Shown here: piece by piece, positions 6,945 to 22,230 of the stretch
Layout: each line of letters begins with the position of its first letter
Position numbering within the stretch: the first letter of the stretch is position 1
Virus record (IMG/VR): IMGVR_UViG_3300032116_001402
Span: 1 to 22,581 of that record
DNA from: a virus
Strand: one strand, 5' to 3'
DNA length: 22,581 bases
Notes under the pieces: generated by a model
Database searches by the model: none
Seen by the model: the letters and a program-made list of their open reading frames with translations, nothing else
Told to the model about the DNA's origin: nothing
Position numbers and translations under genes: made by a program

Positions 6945-7223
6945 TTACGCTGATTTGTTGTTTTGGAAGAAGTCAATTCCGCCGTAGATGCCGTATTGGG
7001 CGTTGGATAGTATCCCAAATTCTCGGCATTGTTGTTTGAGTGGGCAGTCGTCACAGATGGCTTTGGCTACTTTGCGTGCCATGCGTTGCATTTCTTGTGA
7101 TTCGTAGTCTTCTGGGTAGAAAAGTTCTGGGTTTTCTTCACAGGGTGTGCCACCGTTATCAGATTGTAATTCTAATAGTCGAAATCTTGCGTTTTCTATT
7201 AGTTTTTGTCGGCGGTCTGTCAT
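6945..7223 (-). CDS. whiB: WhiB-family transcription factor
   Basis: 92 residues on the minus strand. Four cysteines in the WhiB arrangement, C28 ... C57-x2-C60-x5-C66 (ICDDCPLKQQC), would bind a 4Fe-4S cluster, followed by the turn GIYGG at 78-82, where most family members have Trp instead of Tyr. WhiB-like proteins bind region 4 of the primary sigma factor and redirect transcription; several phages use them to control host or phage promoters. The basic C-terminal DNA-binding tail is short here (FFQNNKSA), so it may act mainly through sigma. It lacks a Shine-Dalgarno and has a TAAGAT -10 six bases upstream of its ATG, suggesting a leaderless mRNA. Confidence 0.88.
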   Translation of the reverse strand: MTDRRQKLIENARFRLLELQSDNGGTPCEENPELFYPEDYESQEMQRMARKVAKAICDDCPLKQQCREFGILSNAQYGIYGGIDFFQNNKSA

Positions 7224-9511: not shown

Positions 9512-10141
9512 ATGCTCGATGAGAAGTTCTACATAGAACGCATCACGAATCAAATGGCAATGGAAGTTGTTGTTGCTAATCACTATTTGCATCGCAGAGC
9601 GCCGTGTAGTTGGGCGTTTGGGATGTTTGACAAATCCAATCATCAGTTGGTTGGTGTTGTGGTTTATGGTGTTTCTGCGTCTTCGACTTTGTTGCGAGGT
9701 ATTTGTGGTGATGATGAGGCAAAGAATGTTTACGAGTTGACTCGTTTGTGGATTGACGATGATGTGCCTAAGAATGGCGAGTCTTGGCTGATTGCTAACA
9801 CGATGGGTAAGACGGACAGGGAAATCATTGTCAGTTATGCTGACAGTTCACAGAACCATGTGGGTGTGGTTTATCAGGCTGCGAACTTTATTTACACGGG
9901 TTTGTCGTCTAAGTTCAAAGACCCGAAGGTTCGTGGGTTAGAGCATCAGCATCACGCTACTTATGCAAATGGTATGACCAACAAAGAGGTTGTCGAGAAG
10001 TTTGGTGACCGTGTGTATTTTGTCGAAAGACCACGCAAGCACAGGTATGTTTATTTTGCAACTTCTAAGAGTCGGCGTAAGGTTTTGATGGGTAAGTTGC
10101 GTTATCCTGTTTTGCCGTATCCGAAAGCAGCAAGTGAATAA
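9512..10141 (+). CDS. Mom-like DNA adenine hypermodification protein (GNAT-type)
   Basis: 209 residues with the RBS AAAGGGAAAAA just before ATG. Mom proteins (phage Mu prototype) convert adenines to a bulky methylcarbamoyl derivative that blocks many restriction enzymes. Family hallmarks visible: HYLHRRAPCSWAFGMFD in the N-terminal third, the strand LVGVVVYG, YELTRLWIDDDVPKNGESWL, then SYADSSQNHVGVVYQAANF and IYTGLS, and RKHRYVYF towards the C-terminus. These correspond to the acetyltransferase-like core. The enzyme would act on phage DNA before packaging. A separate DNA methyltransferase is encoded at 16099-17292. Function of the homologue, and whether the added group is the same as in Mu, are inferred. 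Confidence 0.8.
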   Translation: MLDEKFYIERITNQMAMEVVVANHYLHRRAPCSWAFGMFDKSNHQLVGVVVYGVSASSTLLRGICGDDEAKNVYELTRLWIDDDVPKNGESWLIANTMGKTDREIIVSYADSSQNHVGVVYQAANFIYTGLSSKFKDPKVRGLEHQHHATYANGMTNKEVVEKFGDRVYFVERPRKHRYVYFATSKSRRKVLMGKLRYPVLPYPKAASE

Positions 10142-14214: not shown

Positions 14215-14445
14215 ATGTTAGAAGGGTTGACACCACCTGTCAGACAGTTCAGTTGCAAAGCAAAAACTGTGCTGAACGGCTTGGATAGCAAAGACCAGAA
14301 GGTTTTGGAGCAGGCTCTTTTGTCGCCTGATGTTTGGGGCGCAAGGACACTCTCGACAGAACTGAAAAAGCGTGGGTTGTTGTTGTCTGACAACGCCATC
14401 TCAAATCACCGTAAAAAAACCTGCGCTTGCTTTAGAGTTAACTGA
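14215..14445 (+). CDS. Small HTH-like protein with Cys-rich end
   Basis: 76 residues. KTVLNGLDSKDQKVLEQALL, TLSTELKKRGLLLSDNAISN and HRKKTCACFRVN: the middle resembles a helix-turn-helix that recurs in actinophage small proteins (LS.EL..RG...SD.AI..HR...CAC). Sits directly before the phosphoesterase gene with stop-start overlap (TGATG). DNA-binding inferred. Confidence 0.55.
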   Translation: MLEGLTPPVRQFSCKAKTVLNGLDSKDQKVLEQALLSPDVWGARTLSTELKKRGLLLSDNAISNHRKKTCACFRVN

Positions 14446-15614
14446 TGCTAGAAGACTTGAAACCGACCACGAAGATTAAACCGCCAGTAGGTTTTGAACC
14501 TGCTCTTGAGTTTGACGGCACTAACGGTGAGGCCACACTACCTGCCCTGTCAGATGACGAGAAGCCCGACTTTGAACAGTTCCTTATCGAAGCAGGTTTC
14601 GACCCTGCCCAGTATGAGATTGTGGGCGTGCCACGCACAAGCCGTTGGCAGGTTGCCAGACCGTTCCCGTTAGACCCTCAGTGGTTGACTTCTTACAAGT
14701 TTCGGTTTCAGAAACGCCACGCAGCGCATCTGGACTTGCCTACGCTTTACGCTCAGGTCAAGAAAACAAAGAAACCTGTTCGCAAGCCTGTAACATCTGA
14801 CAAAGTGTTTGTCGCTTGCTTGGCTGACTTTCAGGTTGGTAAGACAGACCAGCGTGGGGGAACTCCTGAACTGATTGAACGCATCCACGCTTCTTATGCT
14901 TTGATTGAGCAGCATTTGAAGAAGAACAAGTATGAACGCATTTATGCGATTGACTTGGGCGACATCATCGAGGGGTTCGAGAACGCCGCCAATCTCCAAC
15001 AGTTGCAGGGCAACGACCTGAGCATCATGCAACAGGTTGATTTGGCTTGTGCGCTTATCTGGGATTTCTTGAAGATGGCAAGCAAGTATGCTCCTATCAC
15101 TTACGCATCTATCGGCTCTAATCACTGCCAGTGGCGTGTAAGCAAACAGGCTGTCGGCAAGCCGGGTGTGGATGACTGGGGCATTGTGATTCTGCAACAG
15201 GTTCGCCGTCTTGCTGTCGAGGTTGGGTTAGATGTTGATTTTCTTATCCCGCAACCGCAGGATGAGTCGTTGGCATTTGACGCTTTTGGTGACGGTTTCC
15301 ATGTTGTCGGTATTGCTCACGGTCACCAGTTCAACCGCCCTGAGAACGCTGTGACTTGGTGGCGTGGGTCAACATTTGGTCATCAGCCTGTTGCAGCAGC
15401 CTCACTGCTTTTGACTGGACATTTTCATCACCTGCGAGTGGTTGAGGTGGGTGAGTCTCACAACGGTGGCAGTCGCTACTGGGTTCAGGCCACAACATCA
15501 GACAGCGGGTCGTCTTGGTTTAGGCGTGTTTCGGGCGAAGACTCGAAGACTGGCATCACCTGTTTGGAACTCCAAAAGGGTGTTCATTTTGGTGGAACTG
15601 TAATAAGATTTTAG
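14445..15614 (+). CDS. Mre11-like calcineurin-type metallophosphoesterase
   Basis: 389 residues. Metallophosphoesterase motifs in order: ACLADFQVG (D128), IDLGDIIEG (D173), IGSNHCQW (N226, H227), AHGHQ (H292, H294) and TGHFHH (H326, H328), i.e. the dimetal site D-x..GD..NH..H..GH-x-H. Actinophage homologues are labelled Mre11-like nucleases. A 120-residue N-terminal segment (helical, with RWQVARPFPLDPQW) precedes the core. Likely acts on DNA ends or structures during replication and recombination; phosphodiesterase or nuclease specificity cannot be read from the sequence. Last gene of this operon. Confidence 0.82.
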   Translation: MLEDLKPTTKIKPPVGFEPALEFDGTNGEATLPALSDDEKPDFEQFLIEAGFDPAQYEIVGVPRTSRWQVARPFPLDPQWLTSYKFRFQKRHAAHLDLPTLYAQVKKTKKPVRKPVTSDKVFVACLADFQVGKTDQRGGTPELIERIHASYALIEQHLKKNKYERIYAIDLGDIIEGFENAANLQQLQGNDLSIMQQVDLACALIWDFLKMASKYAPITYASIGSNHCQWRVSKQAVGKPGVDDWGIVILQQVRRLAVEVGLDVDFLIPQPQDESLAFDAFGDGFHVVGIAHGHQFNRPENAVTWWRGSTFGHQPVAAASLLLTGHFHHLRVVEVGESHNGGSRYWVQATTSDSGSSWFRRVSGEDSKTGITCLELQKGVHFGGTVIRF

Positions 15615-15751: not shown

Positions 15752-16102
15752 ATGTATTGCACAAGTTGTTTTAATCCGATTGATGCACAAACTTTGCGGA
15801 TGAGACGTGGCAAGGCTGCCGAGAGAACCGATTGCGGAGACTGCGCTACTGCGCTTCGCATCAAAACAAAGTATGGAGTGTGTTTCAGTCATGTGGGCGA
15901 ATACGATGAGAACGAGATTCCGATTGGTCGCACTGGTCAACCTATTCTTGCTGGTGTTCGTAAATGTGGTAACAGTGATTGCATTAATCCTGAGCATTGT
16001 GTTAGCGAACGTCTCTTAGAGCGTTTTGACATTAGTTATCGCACGGGCAAGAAACTGTCTGCTGCCGAGTTTTATCAGGTTTTAGAAAGGGAACGCCCAT
16101 GA
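15752..16102 (+). CDS. Zinc-ribbon protein with HNH-like C-terminus (paralogue B)
   Basis: 116 residues, ATG after AAAAGGGAAAG. Zinc ribbon: YCTSCF and DCGDC. C-terminal part: GVCFSHVGEYDENEIPIGRT, QPILAGVRKCGNSDCINPEH with the HNH-like CxNPEH motif. Same organisation as 11475-11786, and the only clear within-window relative. A 30-residue C-terminal extension (LERFDISYRTGKKLSAAEFY) is unique to this copy. It overlaps the methyltransferase start, so the two are likely co-expressed. DNA-binding or nuclease role inferred. Confidence 0.6.
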   Translation: MYCTSCFNPIDAQTLRMRRGKAAERTDCGDCATALRIKTKYGVCFSHVGEYDENEIPIGRTGQPILAGVRKCGNSDCINPEHCVSERLLERFDISYRTGKKLSAAEFYQVLERERP

Positions 16103-17292
16103 TTGAGTTGGCTAACGCAAAAGTATTTTTTGGTTCAAACCTTGATGTGTTGCCTACGCTGCCCGATAACTCGGTTGACAGCATTGTGACTGACCCACCT
16201 TATGAACTTGGGTTTATGGGCAAGAAGTGGGATAGCAGCGGTATTGCCTACTCGGTTAAGTTGTGGCAGGAGTGTTTAAGGGTTCTCAAGCCGGGTGGTC
16301 ATTTATTGTCTTTTGGTGGTACACGCACTTTTCACCGCATGGCTGTTGCGATTGAGGATGCTGGTTTTGAGGTGCGTGACAGCATTGCTTGGTTGTATGG
16401 GTCAGGTTTTCCTAAGTCGTTGGATGTGAGCAAGGCGATTGATAAGGCTGCTGGCGCAAAGCGAGAAGTTATTGGCCAGCGTTTCGATGGCATGAGCGAA
16501 ACTGCTATGAAACCTGATAAAGGCTGGAACGCTAATTCAATGGGTGCGACTGTGGACATTACTGCACCAGCCACAGATGAAGCAAAGAAGTGGGCTGGTT
16601 GGGGAACAGCGTTGAAACCTGCGTTTGAACCTGTTGTTGTTGCTCGTAAGCCGTTGGTGGGAACTGTAGCGGCGAATGTGTTGGAGTGGGGTGTTGGTGG
16701 GTTGAACATTGACGGCTCACGCATTGGCACGACAGATAAGTTTGGTGGCGGTGCTAAGGGCAAGTCTGGTTTTGCTGCTGGCTATGATGGCGATGGTTGG
16801 ACTGCTGGCAGTGAGCAGGGTCGTTGGCCTGCGAACATTATTCTTGATGAATACACGGCAGGGCTACTAGACGAACAAAGCGAAGATGCAAGCCGTTTTT
16901 TTTATGTATCTAAAGCCAACAAGAAAGACCGCAACGATGGACTAAGCCACCTAGAAATTAAACGCCCAGACACACGCACATCAACAGGCATGGGAACATT
17001 TGAAGAAAAAGGCGTTCAACCACAACGCAACTTCCACCCAACTGTAAAACCAACATCACTAATGGAATATTTGGTCAAACTTGTAACACCACCAAACGGC
17101 ACAGTCCTAGACCCGTTCACAGGCTCAGGCTCGACAGGTAAAGCAGCGTTGCTAAACGGCTACAAATTTATCGGCATAGAATTGACCGCAGAATACCTGC
17201 CTATCATTGAGGGAAGACTGAAACACGCAGCAGAAACCTATAAGCAGCGTTCGACAGAAGAAGAAGAAAAAGAAAAGGAAACATTGTTTTGA
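16099..17292 (+). CDS. DNA (adenine-type) methyltransferase
   Basis: 397 residues, ATG overlapping the previous stop. N-terminal catalytic motif TDPPYELGFM (D32-Y35) and C-terminal AdoMet-binding motif VLDPFTGSGSTGKAALLNGY with F/G motif about 338-347; order catalytic motif first, FxGxG motif last marks a beta-class N6-adenine or N4-cytosine enzyme, DPPY favouring adenine. Residues about 120-300 form a long insert with WGTALKPAFEPVVVARKP, a common phage insert that may be the target recognition domain. DNA marks would protect phage DNA from host restriction or affect regulation. Codon use changes abruptly near residue 255, and a run of eight T lies there. Confidence 0.87.
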   Translation: MIELANAKVFFGSNLDVLPTLPDNSVDSIVTDPPYELGFMGKKWDSSGIAYSVKLWQECLRVLKPGGHLLSFGGTRTFHRMAVAIEDAGFEVRDSIAWLYGSGFPKSLDVSKAIDKAAGAKREVIGQRFDGMSETAMKPDKGWNANSMGATVDITAPATDEAKKWAGWGTALKPAFEPVVVARKPLVGTVAANVLEWGVGGLNIDGSRIGTTDKFGGGAKGKSGFAAGYDGDGWTAGSEQGRWPANIILDEYTAGLLDEQSEDASRFFYVSKANKKDRNDGLSHLEIKRPDTRTSTGMGTFEEKGVQPQRNFHPTVKPTSLMEYLVKLVTPPNGTVLDPFTGSGSTGKAALLNGYKFIGIELTAEYLPIIEGRLKHAAETYKQRSTEEEEKEKETLF

Positions 17293-17587: not shown

Positions 17588-17910
17588 TGGGTCGTTTCCG
17601 TAAACCGTGCCTTGACTGTGGCGAACTGACCGATGGCGGTAACAGGTGTGAGGTTCATCAGCGCCGTGTTGACGAGTTGGCTGAGATGCGTAGGGCTTTG
17701 ATAAAGAAAACTTTGAACACTTATGGTGGCGACTATAAGCGCCGTGCGAAGCAGGTTCGTGATACTGCTGTTGTGTGTCATTTGTGTGGTGAGGGCGCTC
17801 GTGTTGGTGACCCGTGGCAGGCTGACCATTTGGTTGCTGGCGATTCGAGTAGTCCGTTGGCTGCTGCTCATGGTTCGTGTAATCGTAGGCGTGGCAATAA
17901 GCCGTTGTAA
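17587..17910 (+). CDS. HNH endonuclease
   Basis: 107 residues, ATG overlapping the previous stop (TGATG). N-terminal zinc motif (PCLDCGELT and RCEVH), helical YGGDYKRRAKQVRDTAVVCH, then CHLCGEGAR, WQADHLVAGD and AAAHGSCNRRRGNKP: the typical HNH fold with H-D-H, N and C ligands. Small phage HNH proteins of this kind often assist terminase or cut DNA during packaging. It is the last gene of this block; the 262 bp downstream are non-coding repeats and control sequence. Confidence 0.82.
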   Translation: MGRFRKPCLDCGELTDGGNRCEVHQRRVDELAEMRRALIKKTLNTYGGDYKRRAKQVRDTAVVCHLCGEGARVGDPWQADHLVAGDSSSPLAAAHGSCNRRRGNKPL

Positions 17911-18014
17911 AAATTTGGTTCGGCGCATATATAGGCAAAATTTGGTTGAGGCCATATAAGCAAAATTTGGTCAGCGCCCTATAAAGCAAAAATCCAGTTG
18001 AACGCCTATATAGA
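17910..18014 (+). repeat. Four tandem 25-27 bp repeats, intergenic
   Basis: Copies start at 17910, 17937, 17962 and 17988 and share AAAATTTGGTT.. (copy 4 degenerate, AAAAATCCAGTT), a GC-rich middle (GGCGC, GAGGCC, GCGCC) and TATATA or TATAAG/TATAAA near the end. Periods are 27, 25 and 26 bp. Related copies occur at 20299-20376. Possible regulator site array, tandem promoters or replication iterons. Confidence 0.65.
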
Positions 18015-18041: not shown

Positions 18042-18157
18042 ATAACGCTGCCCGTTATTAGTTGCCCGTTATCAATTCGTTATGAAAAATGTTTGCGAAA
18101 TGCGTAATGTTTTTGCTTTTTCTGTGTTATCTTTTTGAGAGTGTCAAGAGTTGGCAC
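18042..18157 (+). promoter_or_regulatory. Early leader A: CGTTAT sites plus GAG-loop inverted repeat
   Basis: Contains CGTTAT copies at 18053, 18067 and 18078, plus one inverted (ATAACG 18042-18047). TGAGAGT follows at 18136-18142, and the inverted repeat GTGTCAA-GAG-TTGGCAC at 18141-18157 (one G-T pair). CCGTTATCAATTCGTTAT is shared with leader B. No canonical -35 at the position used in B and C. Upstream of the gene at 18173. Confidence 0.5.
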
Positions 18158-18172
18158 GATGAAAGGGAAAAA

Positions 18173-18550
18173 ATGGCAACAATCAAGGCAGACCTATCGC
18201 CTGAACTCAAAGAGAAATATGCTTACGCCCTAGCGCAAAAACTAGAAGACGGCGGCAAGTTGCTTATCAGTATTACTCATTGCTCAAAATCAAATATGTC
18301 TTACCGCTATAAAGTGAGCGTTGCTTATAGCGCAAACGGGCAAACAAAAATCGAAGACCTAAATTATTGGCTGGCAGCGTGCTGGGGCGAAACCTTATAT
18401 CAGGGCGCTTTTAATGAACTAAAAGGTCACGGCTTAGGGATTGACCGCTATTTTTGGGCAGCCTACAATATCGGGCTAACGCTCAAAGAATACGACCTTA
18501 TCGAAGACCCGTATGAAATCGCAAACCGCAGAACCTATCAGGAAATCTAA
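18173..18550 (+). CDS. Hypothetical protein, first gene of early unit A
   Basis: 125 residues from the ATG after GAAAGGGAAAAA; longer in-frame starts lie in the leader. Sequence shows MATIKADLSPELKEKYAYAL, SITHCSKSNMSYRYKVSVAY, DLNYWLAACWGETLYQGAF and DRYFWAAYNIGLTLKEYDLI; mixed alpha/beta, soluble. No family recognised. First of at least nine mostly adjacent genes under leader A. Confidence 0.7.
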   Translation: MATIKADLSPELKEKYAYALAQKLEDGGKLLISITHCSKSNMSYRYKVSVAYSANGQTKIEDLNYWLAACWGETLYQGAFNELKGHGLGIDRYFWAAYNIGLTLKEYDLIEDPYEIANRRTYQEI

Positions 18551-20296: not shown

Positions 20297-20522
20297 TGAA
20301 AATTCGGTTAGCCCCGTTAAACCGCAAAATTCGGTTCGAGACATTAGGGCGCAAAATCTGGTCAGGCCGATAAAGCGACCCGCTACCCGACACCCGATTT
20401 ACGACAGCCCGAAACCGACCCCGCCTAATGCGCTGATAATAATTCTGGGCATCGTGTTTTGGCCTATCGCTCTTGCCTTTCTCATCGGGTCAAAAACTCT
20501 CGGTGATACACGCAAAGGCTAA
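20283..20522 (+). CDS. Repeat-bearing single-TM protein
   Basis: 79 residues from the ATG overlapping the preceding gene. N-terminus has three nine-residue repeats, ENSVSPVKP, QNSVRDIRA and QNLVRPIKR, encoded by DNA repeats of about 27 bp that also occur between genes at 17910-18014. Then a basic Pro-rich stretch and one membrane span (ALIIILGIVFWPIALAFLIG), a short GDTRKG end. Membrane tethering of a basic repeat arm is suggested; no function known. Confidence 0.52.
   Translation: MADISENSVSPVKPQNSVRDIRAQNLVRPIKRPATRHPIYDSPKPTPPNALIIILGIVFWPIALAFLIGSKTLGDTRKG
20299..20376 (+). repeat. Second cluster of the 27-bp repeat, inside a coding region
   Basis: Copies at 20299, 20326 and 20353 share AAAATTCGGTT or AAAATCTGGTC; the third matches 17962-17987 closely (CAAAAT.TGGTCAG..C....TAAAGC). 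Periods are 27 bp, in frame, giving the nine-residue protein repeats of the gene at 20283. Confidence 0.62.
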
Positions 20523-20646: not shown

Positions 20647-20740
20647 CGTTATCAATTCGTTATCAAAAATGTTTGCCTAAGACTTGACACGGCTCTAACA
20701 ATTTGAGAGACTAAGGGGGTGAAGTTGGCAGAGTGCCAAC
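20647..20740 (+). promoter_or_regulatory. Early promoter B with CGTTATC repeats and GAG-loop operator
   Basis: CGTTATC at 20647 and 20658 (11-bp period), TTGACA at 20684-20689, 17-bp spacer, GAGACT at 20707-20712, then the perfect inverted repeat GTTGGCA-GAG-TGCCAAC (20724-20740). The element from CGTTATC to -35 and -10 keeps the same spacing as in leader C. Upstream of 20754. Confidence 0.7.
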
Positions 20741-20753
20741 GGATAGGGAAAAA

Positions 20754-21317
20754 ATGACAACAACAGAACTACTAACAGAGCCAGAACTAACGCCGATTTT
20801 GTCAGCGTATTTTGAGACAAAACAGGCCTATGAAACCGCCGTTGATGCTTGTGGCTGGTCTATGACCTTAGAGAGTTATTACCGAAGCCCACGCACCGAA
20901 ACTGATTTTGCCGAGCGCATCGCAACTAACGCCGCACGCCTAACTGAGAGAGCCGACCAAATCGCCCTAGCGGTAGAACTTGGTCAGCGTTTCGCCGATT
21001 TTGTCGCACTAGGCATTGAGCACGAAGCAACCACTTTTGAAATTGCCTTGTACCGCTACCAAGAGCAGCAGCGATACATCGCAGACGCACCCCGCAGGGC
21101 TTGGGCTATGGGCTATAACGCACGCTTGGCCGAGATTGACAAGCAGATAAAGGGCGCAAAAATCCGCAAAGGTCGCACTTGGTCTAAGTGGCGCAAGAAT
21201 GAAGCGACCTATCAAGAAGTCCTTATGCTCGTCTCGGTTATTGACGCCGAGATTGCCGAGATTGAGAAGCGCCGAGAGATTGCCGCCGCCGAGAAGTTCG
21301 AGAGCGTGGTCGCATAA
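20754..21317 (+). CDS. Large helical hypothetical protein, first gene of early unit B
   Basis: 187 residues from the ATG after GATAGGGAAAAA; a GTG further upstream lies in the operator and is rejected. Nearly all helical: AYFETKQAYETAVDACGWSM, TNAARLTERADQIALAVELG and RKGRTWSKWRKNEATYQEVL with VIDAEIAEIEKRREIAAAEK at the C-terminus, strong coiled-coil character. Basic patch KQIKGAKIRKGR near residue 130. No function recognised; overlaps the next gene by one base. Confidence 0.7.
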   Translation: MTTTELLTEPELTPILSAYFETKQAYETAVDACGWSMTLESYYRSPRTETDFAERIATNAARLTERADQIALAVELGQRFADFVALGIEHEATTFEIALYRYQEQQRYIADAPRRAWAMGYNARLAEIDKQIKGAKIRKGRTWSKWRKNEATYQEVLMLVSVIDAEIAEIEKRREIAAAEKFESVVA

Positions 21318-21556: not shown

Positions 21557-21616
21557 AAAATCGTTAGGACACGAACGACTTTCTGCCGCAAGAAAATCAT
21601 TAGGACACGAACGATT
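21557..21616. promoter_or_regulatory. Two 24-bp operator-like direct repeats
   Basis: Copies at 21557-21580 and 21593-21616, 36 bp apart, share AAAATC.TTAGGACACGAACGA.T (two differences). Each contains inverted arms (TCGTT / AACGA, and a variant). Likely protein-binding sites; no cognate regulator is identifiable. Confidence 0.6.
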
Positions 21617-21623
21617 ACAAATT

Positions 21624-21637
21624 AGAACAAATGTTCG
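21624..21637. promoter_or_regulatory. LexA-type SOS box (imperfect)
   Basis: AGAACAAATGTTCG: 13 of 14 bases of the CGAAC-N4-GTTCG consensus. Confidence 0.7.
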
Positions 21638-21666
21638 AAAGTGTTAGAAATGTTAGCGCTCACTTA

Positions 21667-21682
21667 TCGAACAAATGTTCGA
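21667..21682. promoter_or_regulatory. LexA-type SOS box (perfect)
   Basis: TCGAACAAATGTTCGA is a perfect 16-bp palindrome matching the actinobacterial/Gram-positive LexA box. Centre is 44 bp from the first box. Confidence 0.85.
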
Positions 21683-21821: not shown

Positions 21822-21914
21822 CGTTATCGTTTCGTTATCAAAAAAGAAAGAAAAAGACTTGACAACGGGCTAACAAAATGAGAGACTAGACAGGTCTAGG
21901 CAGAGTGCCAAGAC
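21822..21914 (+). promoter_or_regulatory. Early promoter C with CGTTATC repeats and GAG-loop operator
   Basis: CGTTATC at 21822 and 21833, TTGACA at 21859-21864, 17-bp spacer, GAGACT at 21882-21887, then GTCTAGGCA-GAG-TGCCAAGAC (21894-21914, 8 of 9 pairs). Spacing of all parts matches promoter B up to the -10; the operator follows directly. Upstream of 21931. Confidence 0.7.
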
Positions 21915-21930
21915 AGACAGGGAGCAACAA

Positions 21931-22230
21931 ATGGCAACACCACAGACAAACGAACAGCGTCTCGATGCGGCTGAGAAAATACTCTTGGCAGTTATCAAAG
22001 ATGTTCGCAACAACCTGAGCAAGTACAACCGAAGCGACTATTGGGCGCTCAATGAAGCATTTGTTAAGTTAAATGCGATAACGCTCACGGACAAGACCGA
22101 AACCCTGAGCCGCAACTTCACCGAACTAATGCCCGAACTTTTAGGCGAGAAGGCAGGCATCGTGTCTATCCCAGATAGTTTCTGGAAGCCTTATGACGAC
22201 TACAAGGAAGAGCAGGCGAAGCAAGCCTAG
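21931..22230 (+). CDS. Hypothetical protein, gene of early unit C
   Basis: 99 residues, ATG 6 nt after AGGGAG. Helical: NEQRLDAAEKILLAVIKDVR, ALNEAFVKLNAITLTDKTET and a C-terminal part (SIPDSFWKPYDDYKEEQAKQ). Soluble and charged. Flanked by a promoter/operator module and a terminator, it forms its own single-gene unit; function unknown. Confidence 0.72.
   Translation: MATPQTNEQRLDAAEKILLAVIKDVRNNLSKYNRSDYWALNEAFVKLNAITLTDKTETLSRNFTELMPELLGEKAGIVSIPDSFWKPYDDYKEEQAKQA

Follow-up and report, generated by a model that had tools for sequence, protein, structure and literature searches.

Phages of aquatic actinobacteria probably borrow, for promoters of their own, an activator site that their hosts use at sugar-uptake promoters. 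This reading was the best explanation as a whole for a direct repeat, CGTTATC-N4-CGTTATC with an 11-bp period (the box), that stands 19 nt upstream of -35 hexamers in viral contigs and also precedes sugar-uptake genes in host chromosomes. Two exact copies, at 20647-20664 and 21822-21839, were found in IMG/VR record IMGVR_UViG_3300032116_001402 (positions 1 to 22,581, one strand; this whole stretch of 22,581 nucleotides is referred to as the window), with 1.7e-4 exact copies expected by chance. When up to three mismatches were allowed, the window contained eight matches against 1.2 expected, a number that was reached by none of 100 shuffles. The layout originally predicted for promoters B and C, a CGTTATC repeat followed by 19 nt, TTGACA, 17 nt and GAGACT, was recovered in full, and the distance from box to -35, as measured in the sequence, was indeed 19 nt in both.

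20647..20664, plus strand: box B, CGTTATC-AATT-CGTTATC (CGTTATCAATTCGTTATC), proposed activator site, 11-bp direct repeat (exact match)
20684..20689, plus strand: -35 TTGACA of promoter B, 19 nt past box B (sequence; same 19-nt gap in 27 of 30 viral loci)
20707..20712, plus strand: putative -10 GAGACT of promoter B, weak, with TGa before it, 17 nt past the -35 (sequence)
20754..21317, plus strand: first gene downstream of promoter B, no known family (ORF)
21822..21839, plus strand: box C, CGTTATC-GTTT-CGTTATC (CGTTATCGTTTCGTTATC; exact match)
21859..21864, plus strand: -35 TTGACA of promoter C, 19 nt past box C (sequence)
21882..21887, plus strand: putative -10 GAGACT of promoter C, 17 nt past the -35 (sequence)
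21931..22230, plus strand: gene downstream of promoter C, no known family (ORF)

The bases between box and -35, previously described as not conserved, turned out to be identical in B and C at 12 of 19 positions, with AAAAA and AAGAC at the two ends, and both 17-nt spacers contained CTAACAA..TGA. Because the 19-nt and 17-nt spacers both partly agree, B and C were regarded as duplicated promoters and not as independent cases. Position alone suggested that these promoters are early. Neither downstream gene had a Pfam match or a relative in the viral_contigs collection, and that of promoter B had no PHROG match either. About 150-200 bp upstream of box C, GAACAAATGTTCGA (21625-21638) and TCGAACAAATGTTCGA (21667-21682) resembled the actinobacterial LexA (SOS) box; a direct repeat, TTAGGACACGAACGA, occurred near these SOS-like boxes at 21564-21578 and 21600-21614, 36 bp apart.

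A motif search of phage and host genomes, which the original prediction had proposed, detected the box in both. When 2.9 million viral contigs were first scanned for a pair of CGTTATC words with TTGACA 10-30 nt behind it, the gap was 19 nt in 27 of the 30 loci listed, 20 nt in two and 18 nt in one, some of these loci being near-identical to one another. A second scan, in which no -35 was demanded, yielded at least 120 viral contigs with the box, and the carriers were aquatic phage fragments. Counts from these collection scans stand for the matches listed. A non-redundant set with flank identity below 70% comprised 82 sites. In this set, TTGAC peaked at 19 nt and formed a second group at 8-9 nt, one turn nearer, in seven of the 82 sites; an opposite-side control gave at most one occurrence per offset and no peak. 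Extra half-sites were located at -22 (three), -11 (eight), +22 (eight) and +33 (four) relative to the first half-site.

Since part of the 82 sites came from the scan that selected for a -35, the 46 unselected non-redundant sites provided the fair test of spacing. Among these, offset 19 was the best position for TTGACA, with a mean of 2.35 matches against a 99th percentile of 2.15 for shuffles. The 8-9 offset was unremarkable in the mean; eight sites matched five or six of the six bases there. Boxes avoid coding frames and sit in non-coding DNA: five of the 46 lay inside a stop-free frame of at least 150 aa, as compared to 57% of random positions. The earlier suggestion of an activator on one helical face was supported by the recurrence of the 19-nt gap in unrelated promoters, the occurrence of TTGAC at 8-9 nt, the in-phase half-sites and the kept orientation. 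Direct half-sites with a period of 11, extended in phase, matched the tandem sites of the OmpR family, and a site upstream of the -35 on a fixed face, with offsets of 19 and 8-9, matched a class I activated promoter.

Many boxes (L042, L048, L062 and others) had TCCACAAAGTCRTACACA at 19 nt in place of TTGACA, which may represent a second promoter type. Just upstream of the boxes of L030, L010 and L020, in-phase 11-bp units (GTTCACCTAAT or TCAGGTAAT) showed likeness to PhoP/RegX3-type half-sites. An in-phase unit GTTCACCTAATGTTCACCTAAC lay just upstream of the L030 box, and pairs of TCAGGTAAT were present in other loci.

Single phages carried several copies of the box: seven in G338 and four each in G328 and G339, the last of which is a relative of the window. 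Within each of these phages all copies were on one strand (7/7, 4/4 and 4/4) and every box was closely upstream of an ORF. All four boxes of G328 were located 19 nt before a TTG-type hexamer, which in three cases was TTGACA. In the 25 records searched, a reversed-pattern control gave four matches versus more than 50 real boxes.

The carriers of the box are actinophages. Of 40 box-bearing records, 18, the window among them, encoded WhiB.

6945..7223, minus strand: WhiB-family gene, domain at 6972-7139, actinophage marker (PF02467, E 4.3e-13; actinophage homologues)

This gene lies on the minus strand amid plus-strand genes and is divergent from the RecE gene. Homologues of the RecE and WhiB proteins of the window were mostly or only from actinophages, and WhiB, together with weak protein similarity, suggested an actinobacterial host range for the window phage. 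A DNA similarity search with the window matched no known phage. Other proteins encoded in the window belonged to Mom-like DNA modification protein (9512-10141), exonuclease (14445-15614) and DNA methyltransferase (16099-17292) families. When cultured phages were searched by short-query BLAST, the non-coding matches among those listed were only in actinophages, with non-significant E-values. These were Gordonia Runhaar/Burley and M. abscessus prophages, groups in which the box occurred without a clear -35 at 19 nt. In Gordonia phage Runhaar (L159, 4001-4018) and a Mycobacterium abscessus phage (L315, 3002-3019) the box was in non-coding DNA, and in the latter phage it was near the immunity repressor gene. 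Isolated Nanopelagicales phages are described as carrying WhiB and a sigma factor, with no description of promoters in the text consulted (PMC10202952). An OmpR-type DNA-binding domain was encoded in none of the 40 box-bearing records, some of which are short fragments, and a phage-encoded OmpR-type activator was therefore rejected.

In cellular genomes, the full pattern was matched seven times. The three matches with a gap of 19-20 nt were all actinobacterial, and the four others, at different distances, look like chance. In two freshwater MAGs the box lay 20 nt before the TTGACA of a sugar-binding-protein gene, and in a Propionibacteriaceae MAG an apparent araA had the box 249 bp upstream, with TTGACA following after 19 nt. 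The element is thus not 'phage-specific', as had been suggested, since it also occurs in host chromosomes at sugar-uptake genes.

For a test of a host regulon, upstream regions were scored in up to 60 further genomes from the family of a freshwater actinobacterial MAG. Because the scoring matrix was built from phage sites, host scores express likeness to phage boxes. The same site was found at host promoters of coherent function: it was present in 12 of 23 upstream regions of Peripla_BP_4 (sugar-binding-protein) genes, 11 times in the forward (phage) orientation and once in reverse, versus 0 of 29 amtB upstream regions of the same family. Comparison of 11/23 with 0/29 gave a Fisher p of 2e-5 for genes that, being related, share history. 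Since Peripla_BP_4 was picked after earlier hits and G003 itself was among the 23, this result represents a strong lead and not a blind test; a broader control set would be preferable, because amtB carries boxes of another regulator.

In most of the host stretches examined (7-20 kb), the highest-scoring box preceded a sugar-transport gene by 28-170 bp, and several boxes had a TTGA-type hexamer 19-20 nt on. Nearly all high-scoring host boxes preceded sugar-transport genes, and one weaker site preceded a gene reading as xylose isomerase. No regulator gene was found beside the box in 14 such stretches. Exact boxes were enriched in Propionibacteriaceae (14 versus one reversed-control match), where they were found near araA and sugar ABC genes, in several cases near solute-binding proteins and in two near alpha-lytic-type proteases. 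In the family of the MAG there was no excess of exact boxes (six versus six reversed-control matches), and the streamlined 1.2-Mb host genome G004 had only one convincing box, before a sugar-binding-protein gene. A host regulon must therefore rest on degenerate sites. A search of G004 for GTTAY-N6-GTTAY yielded five matches, two of them intergenic, which is a small number. Because the box precedes host sugar-uptake genes and never amtB, the phage element is most likely a copy of the activator site at host sugar-uptake promoters. No earlier description of the box in an actinophage, or of a sugar-uptake regulon of this kind, was found in the literature searched.

In the proposed mechanism, the repeats would be the binding site of a host-encoded activator that acts upstream of the -35 in a class I or class I-like manner. 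Two subunits, sometimes three or four, would bind head to tail, one per 11-bp turn, and, given the usual spacing of -35 and -10, the box would be located at about -72 to -55. The 19-nt gap would ensure that the activator always occupies the same face of the helix and thereby enable contact with RNA polymerase. Hosts would drive their sugar-uptake operons from this box as well, which there has mostly the phage orientation and a comparable distance, and a near-ideal box before several phage operons would make these fire with the nutrient-uptake programme of the host, with no phage-made activator involved. A wider reading, to which we would give slightly less than an even chance, is that many separate lineages of aquatic actinophages tied operons to one host sugar-uptake regulator, so that phage transcription follows the cell's carbon status, and that the box marks a sugar-uptake regulon of freshwater actinobacteria and Propionibacteriaceae that lacks a description in the literature searched. 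Freshwater actinobacteria are among the most abundant lake bacteria, and very little is known about how their phages are controlled. The 18-bp word could serve as a marker for phages of these bacteria and points to candidate promoters in phages that have not been cultured. It also offers a testable link from host carbon uptake to infection and opens a way to a sugar-uptake regulon, for which even the small genome of G004 encodes four candidate regulators.

OmpR-family regulators bind 11-bp tandem arrays, and the array in the box suggests that the proposed activator is a response regulator of this family. Four OmpR-type response regulators were encoded in G004: MtrA, a RegX3-like and a PhoP-like protein, and GlnR. 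MtrA passed the curated NCBIfam cut-off in G004 and exceeded it in 36 of 41 candidate host genomes, and the recognition helix of the host protein was almost identical to that of M. tuberculosis MtrA. In C. glutamicum, the MtrA consensus is (A/G)TAACAATttn(A/G)TAACAAT (RTAACAATTTNRTAACAAT), which is located upstream of the -35 when MtrA activates (PMC3353115). The phage box GATAACGATTTGATAACG agreed with this consensus at 14 of 16 compared positions: both are 11-bp direct repeats of the form RTAAC-N6-RTAAC with ATTT between, but the phage box has G, instead of A, after each RTAAC. The Corynebacterium consensus, the position upstream of the -35 and the near-identical recognition helix favour MtrA, which is the best-fitting candidate. 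Its identification is nevertheless the least certain part of the reading and is proposed tentatively, at rather less than even odds. If MtrA is the activator, the phages lean on a core actinobacterial regulator. The C. glutamicum targets differ in being cell-wall and osmotic genes; MtrA targets also include developmental genes, and TCA-cycle genes in Streptomyces are the nearest link to carbon (PMC12323332). No role of MtrA in sugar uptake was found in the literature searched. Among the few known target genes examined, no box was present at the nlpC-like genes of G004 or in any of five mtrA upstream regions of the same host family. Autoregulation of mtrA through the box was rejected; in the loci examined, mtrA directly follows an apparent ahcY.

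A RegX3-like or PhoP-like regulator, possibly acting on a mixed array with TCA-type units, is an unlikely activator. Both proteins are encoded in G004 and a mixed array is hinted at by the TCA-type in-phase units that precede many phage boxes, but the RegX3 and PhoP half-sites of Streptomyces and Mycobacterium, GTTCACC and TCACAGC, differ from CGTTATC. Somewhat less likely still is a phage-encoded activator, either the phage WhiB or an unrecognised small DNA-binding protein, that binds the repeats and turns on the operons. WhiB was the only protein family common to all 10 larger box-bearing records, and WhiB proteins act at promoters together with sigma region 4. However, the same box occurs before host sugar-uptake genes, where there is no phage factor. 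Moreover, WhiB is frequent in actinophages generally, including phiPsal1, in which the box was not found, and an 11-bp tandem array is, to our knowledge, not a WhiB site.

Action of the nitrogen regulator GlnR of the host on CGTTATCAAATCGTTATC appears improbable. GlnR is encoded in G004, its boxes are likewise 11-bp tandem half-sites of an OmpR-type regulator (GTnAC-n6-GTnAC and the like), and its targets include a sugar-binding protein gene (review, PMC10704036). However, amtB of the same host family has GTAAC-n6-GTAAC and GTCAC-n6-GAAAC on the coding strand, where the phage box has GTTAT, and none of the 29 amtB upstream regions scored as a phage box. These GTAAC and GAAAC half-sites are visibly different and distinguishable from the phage box, and therefore disfavour GlnR. 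Marginally lower is the chance that the repeats serve as the operator of a repressor or as a signal for replication or packaging. Operators can take the form of direct repeats close to promoters, and some boxes are near DnaA-like words (L078), but the position of the box, upstream of the -35, is not the usual one for an operator, and its distance and orientation are fixed in the multiple copies that a phage carries, every one of them preceding an operon. A recent duplication of B and C with inherited spacing, although correct for the two window copies with their shared spacer positions and identical -10, has next to no chance as the whole account, which is contradicted by the same layout in the 82 surveyed sites. 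An UP-like element, also raised in the original prediction, did not fit the exact CGTTATC words 19 nt from the -35, with a stretch of 55% AT adjoining that hexamer, because the AT-rich DNA contacted by alpha-CTD does not take the form of an exact 7-base word repeated every 11 bp. A DnaA box was rejected as well: CGTTATC has the TTATC of TTATCCACA, and the CCACA half is missing.

Borrowing of a host activator site has its closest parallel in cyanophages S-PM2d and P-SSM2, in which the host PhoBR system acts through Pho boxes, with gel shifts demonstrating the binding (PMC10976474). There, as would apply to the box if it is bound as proposed, a host OmpR-type site in phage promoters makes phage genes follow a nutrient programme of the host. 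The cyanophage targets respond to phosphate stress, whereas in the window phage an exact consensus precedes several operons of no known gene families, the host targets concern sugar uptake and the host is probably actinobacterial. Actinophages would be using an equivalent device, but through a different host regulator, for a different class of nutrient and in many phage lineages. Phage lambda CII promoters are similar in having a direct-repeat activator site, if the box is one. However, CII is phage-encoded and its repeats flank the -35, whereas the box is 19 nt upstream of the -35 and common to the host.

Promoter A of the window carries a variant of the same layout.

18067..18084, plus strand: box A, CGTTATC-AATT-CGTTATG (CGTTATCAATTCGTTATG), one mismatch (sequence match)
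18104..18109, plus strand: -35 position of promoter A, GTAATG, non-consensus, 19 nt past box A (sequence; GTAATA in L178)
18128..18133, plus strand: putative -10 TATCTT of promoter A, 18 nt past the -35 position (sequence; GTGTTATCTTTTTGAGAG identical in L178)
18173..18550, plus strand: first gene downstream of promoter A, no known family (relatives at 71% and 56% identity)

Of the CGTTAT repeats that had been assigned to leader A at 18053-18084, the pair at 18067-18084 is in the 11-bp register, whereas CGTTATT at 18053-18059 is 14 bp off and out of register. The leader had correctly been described as lacking a good -35, with GTAATG standing at the 19-nt position. Its TATCTT is closer to the actinobacterial -10 TANNNT than GAGACT is. 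As no relatives of the genes downstream of B and C were found in viral_contigs, the repeats could be compared for the gene after A only, and here the absence from relatives that would have spoken against the original prediction was not observed. The relative at 71% identity kept the box in the same place, and the relative at 56% identity had a box with two mismatches upstream of its operon. In the relative L178, CGTTATCAATTCGTTATA stood at the position matching box A. AAAATTYGGTT repeats were observed at 17910-17991 and 20299-20336, upstream of leaders A and B, and similar copies were present upstream of leader A in L178.
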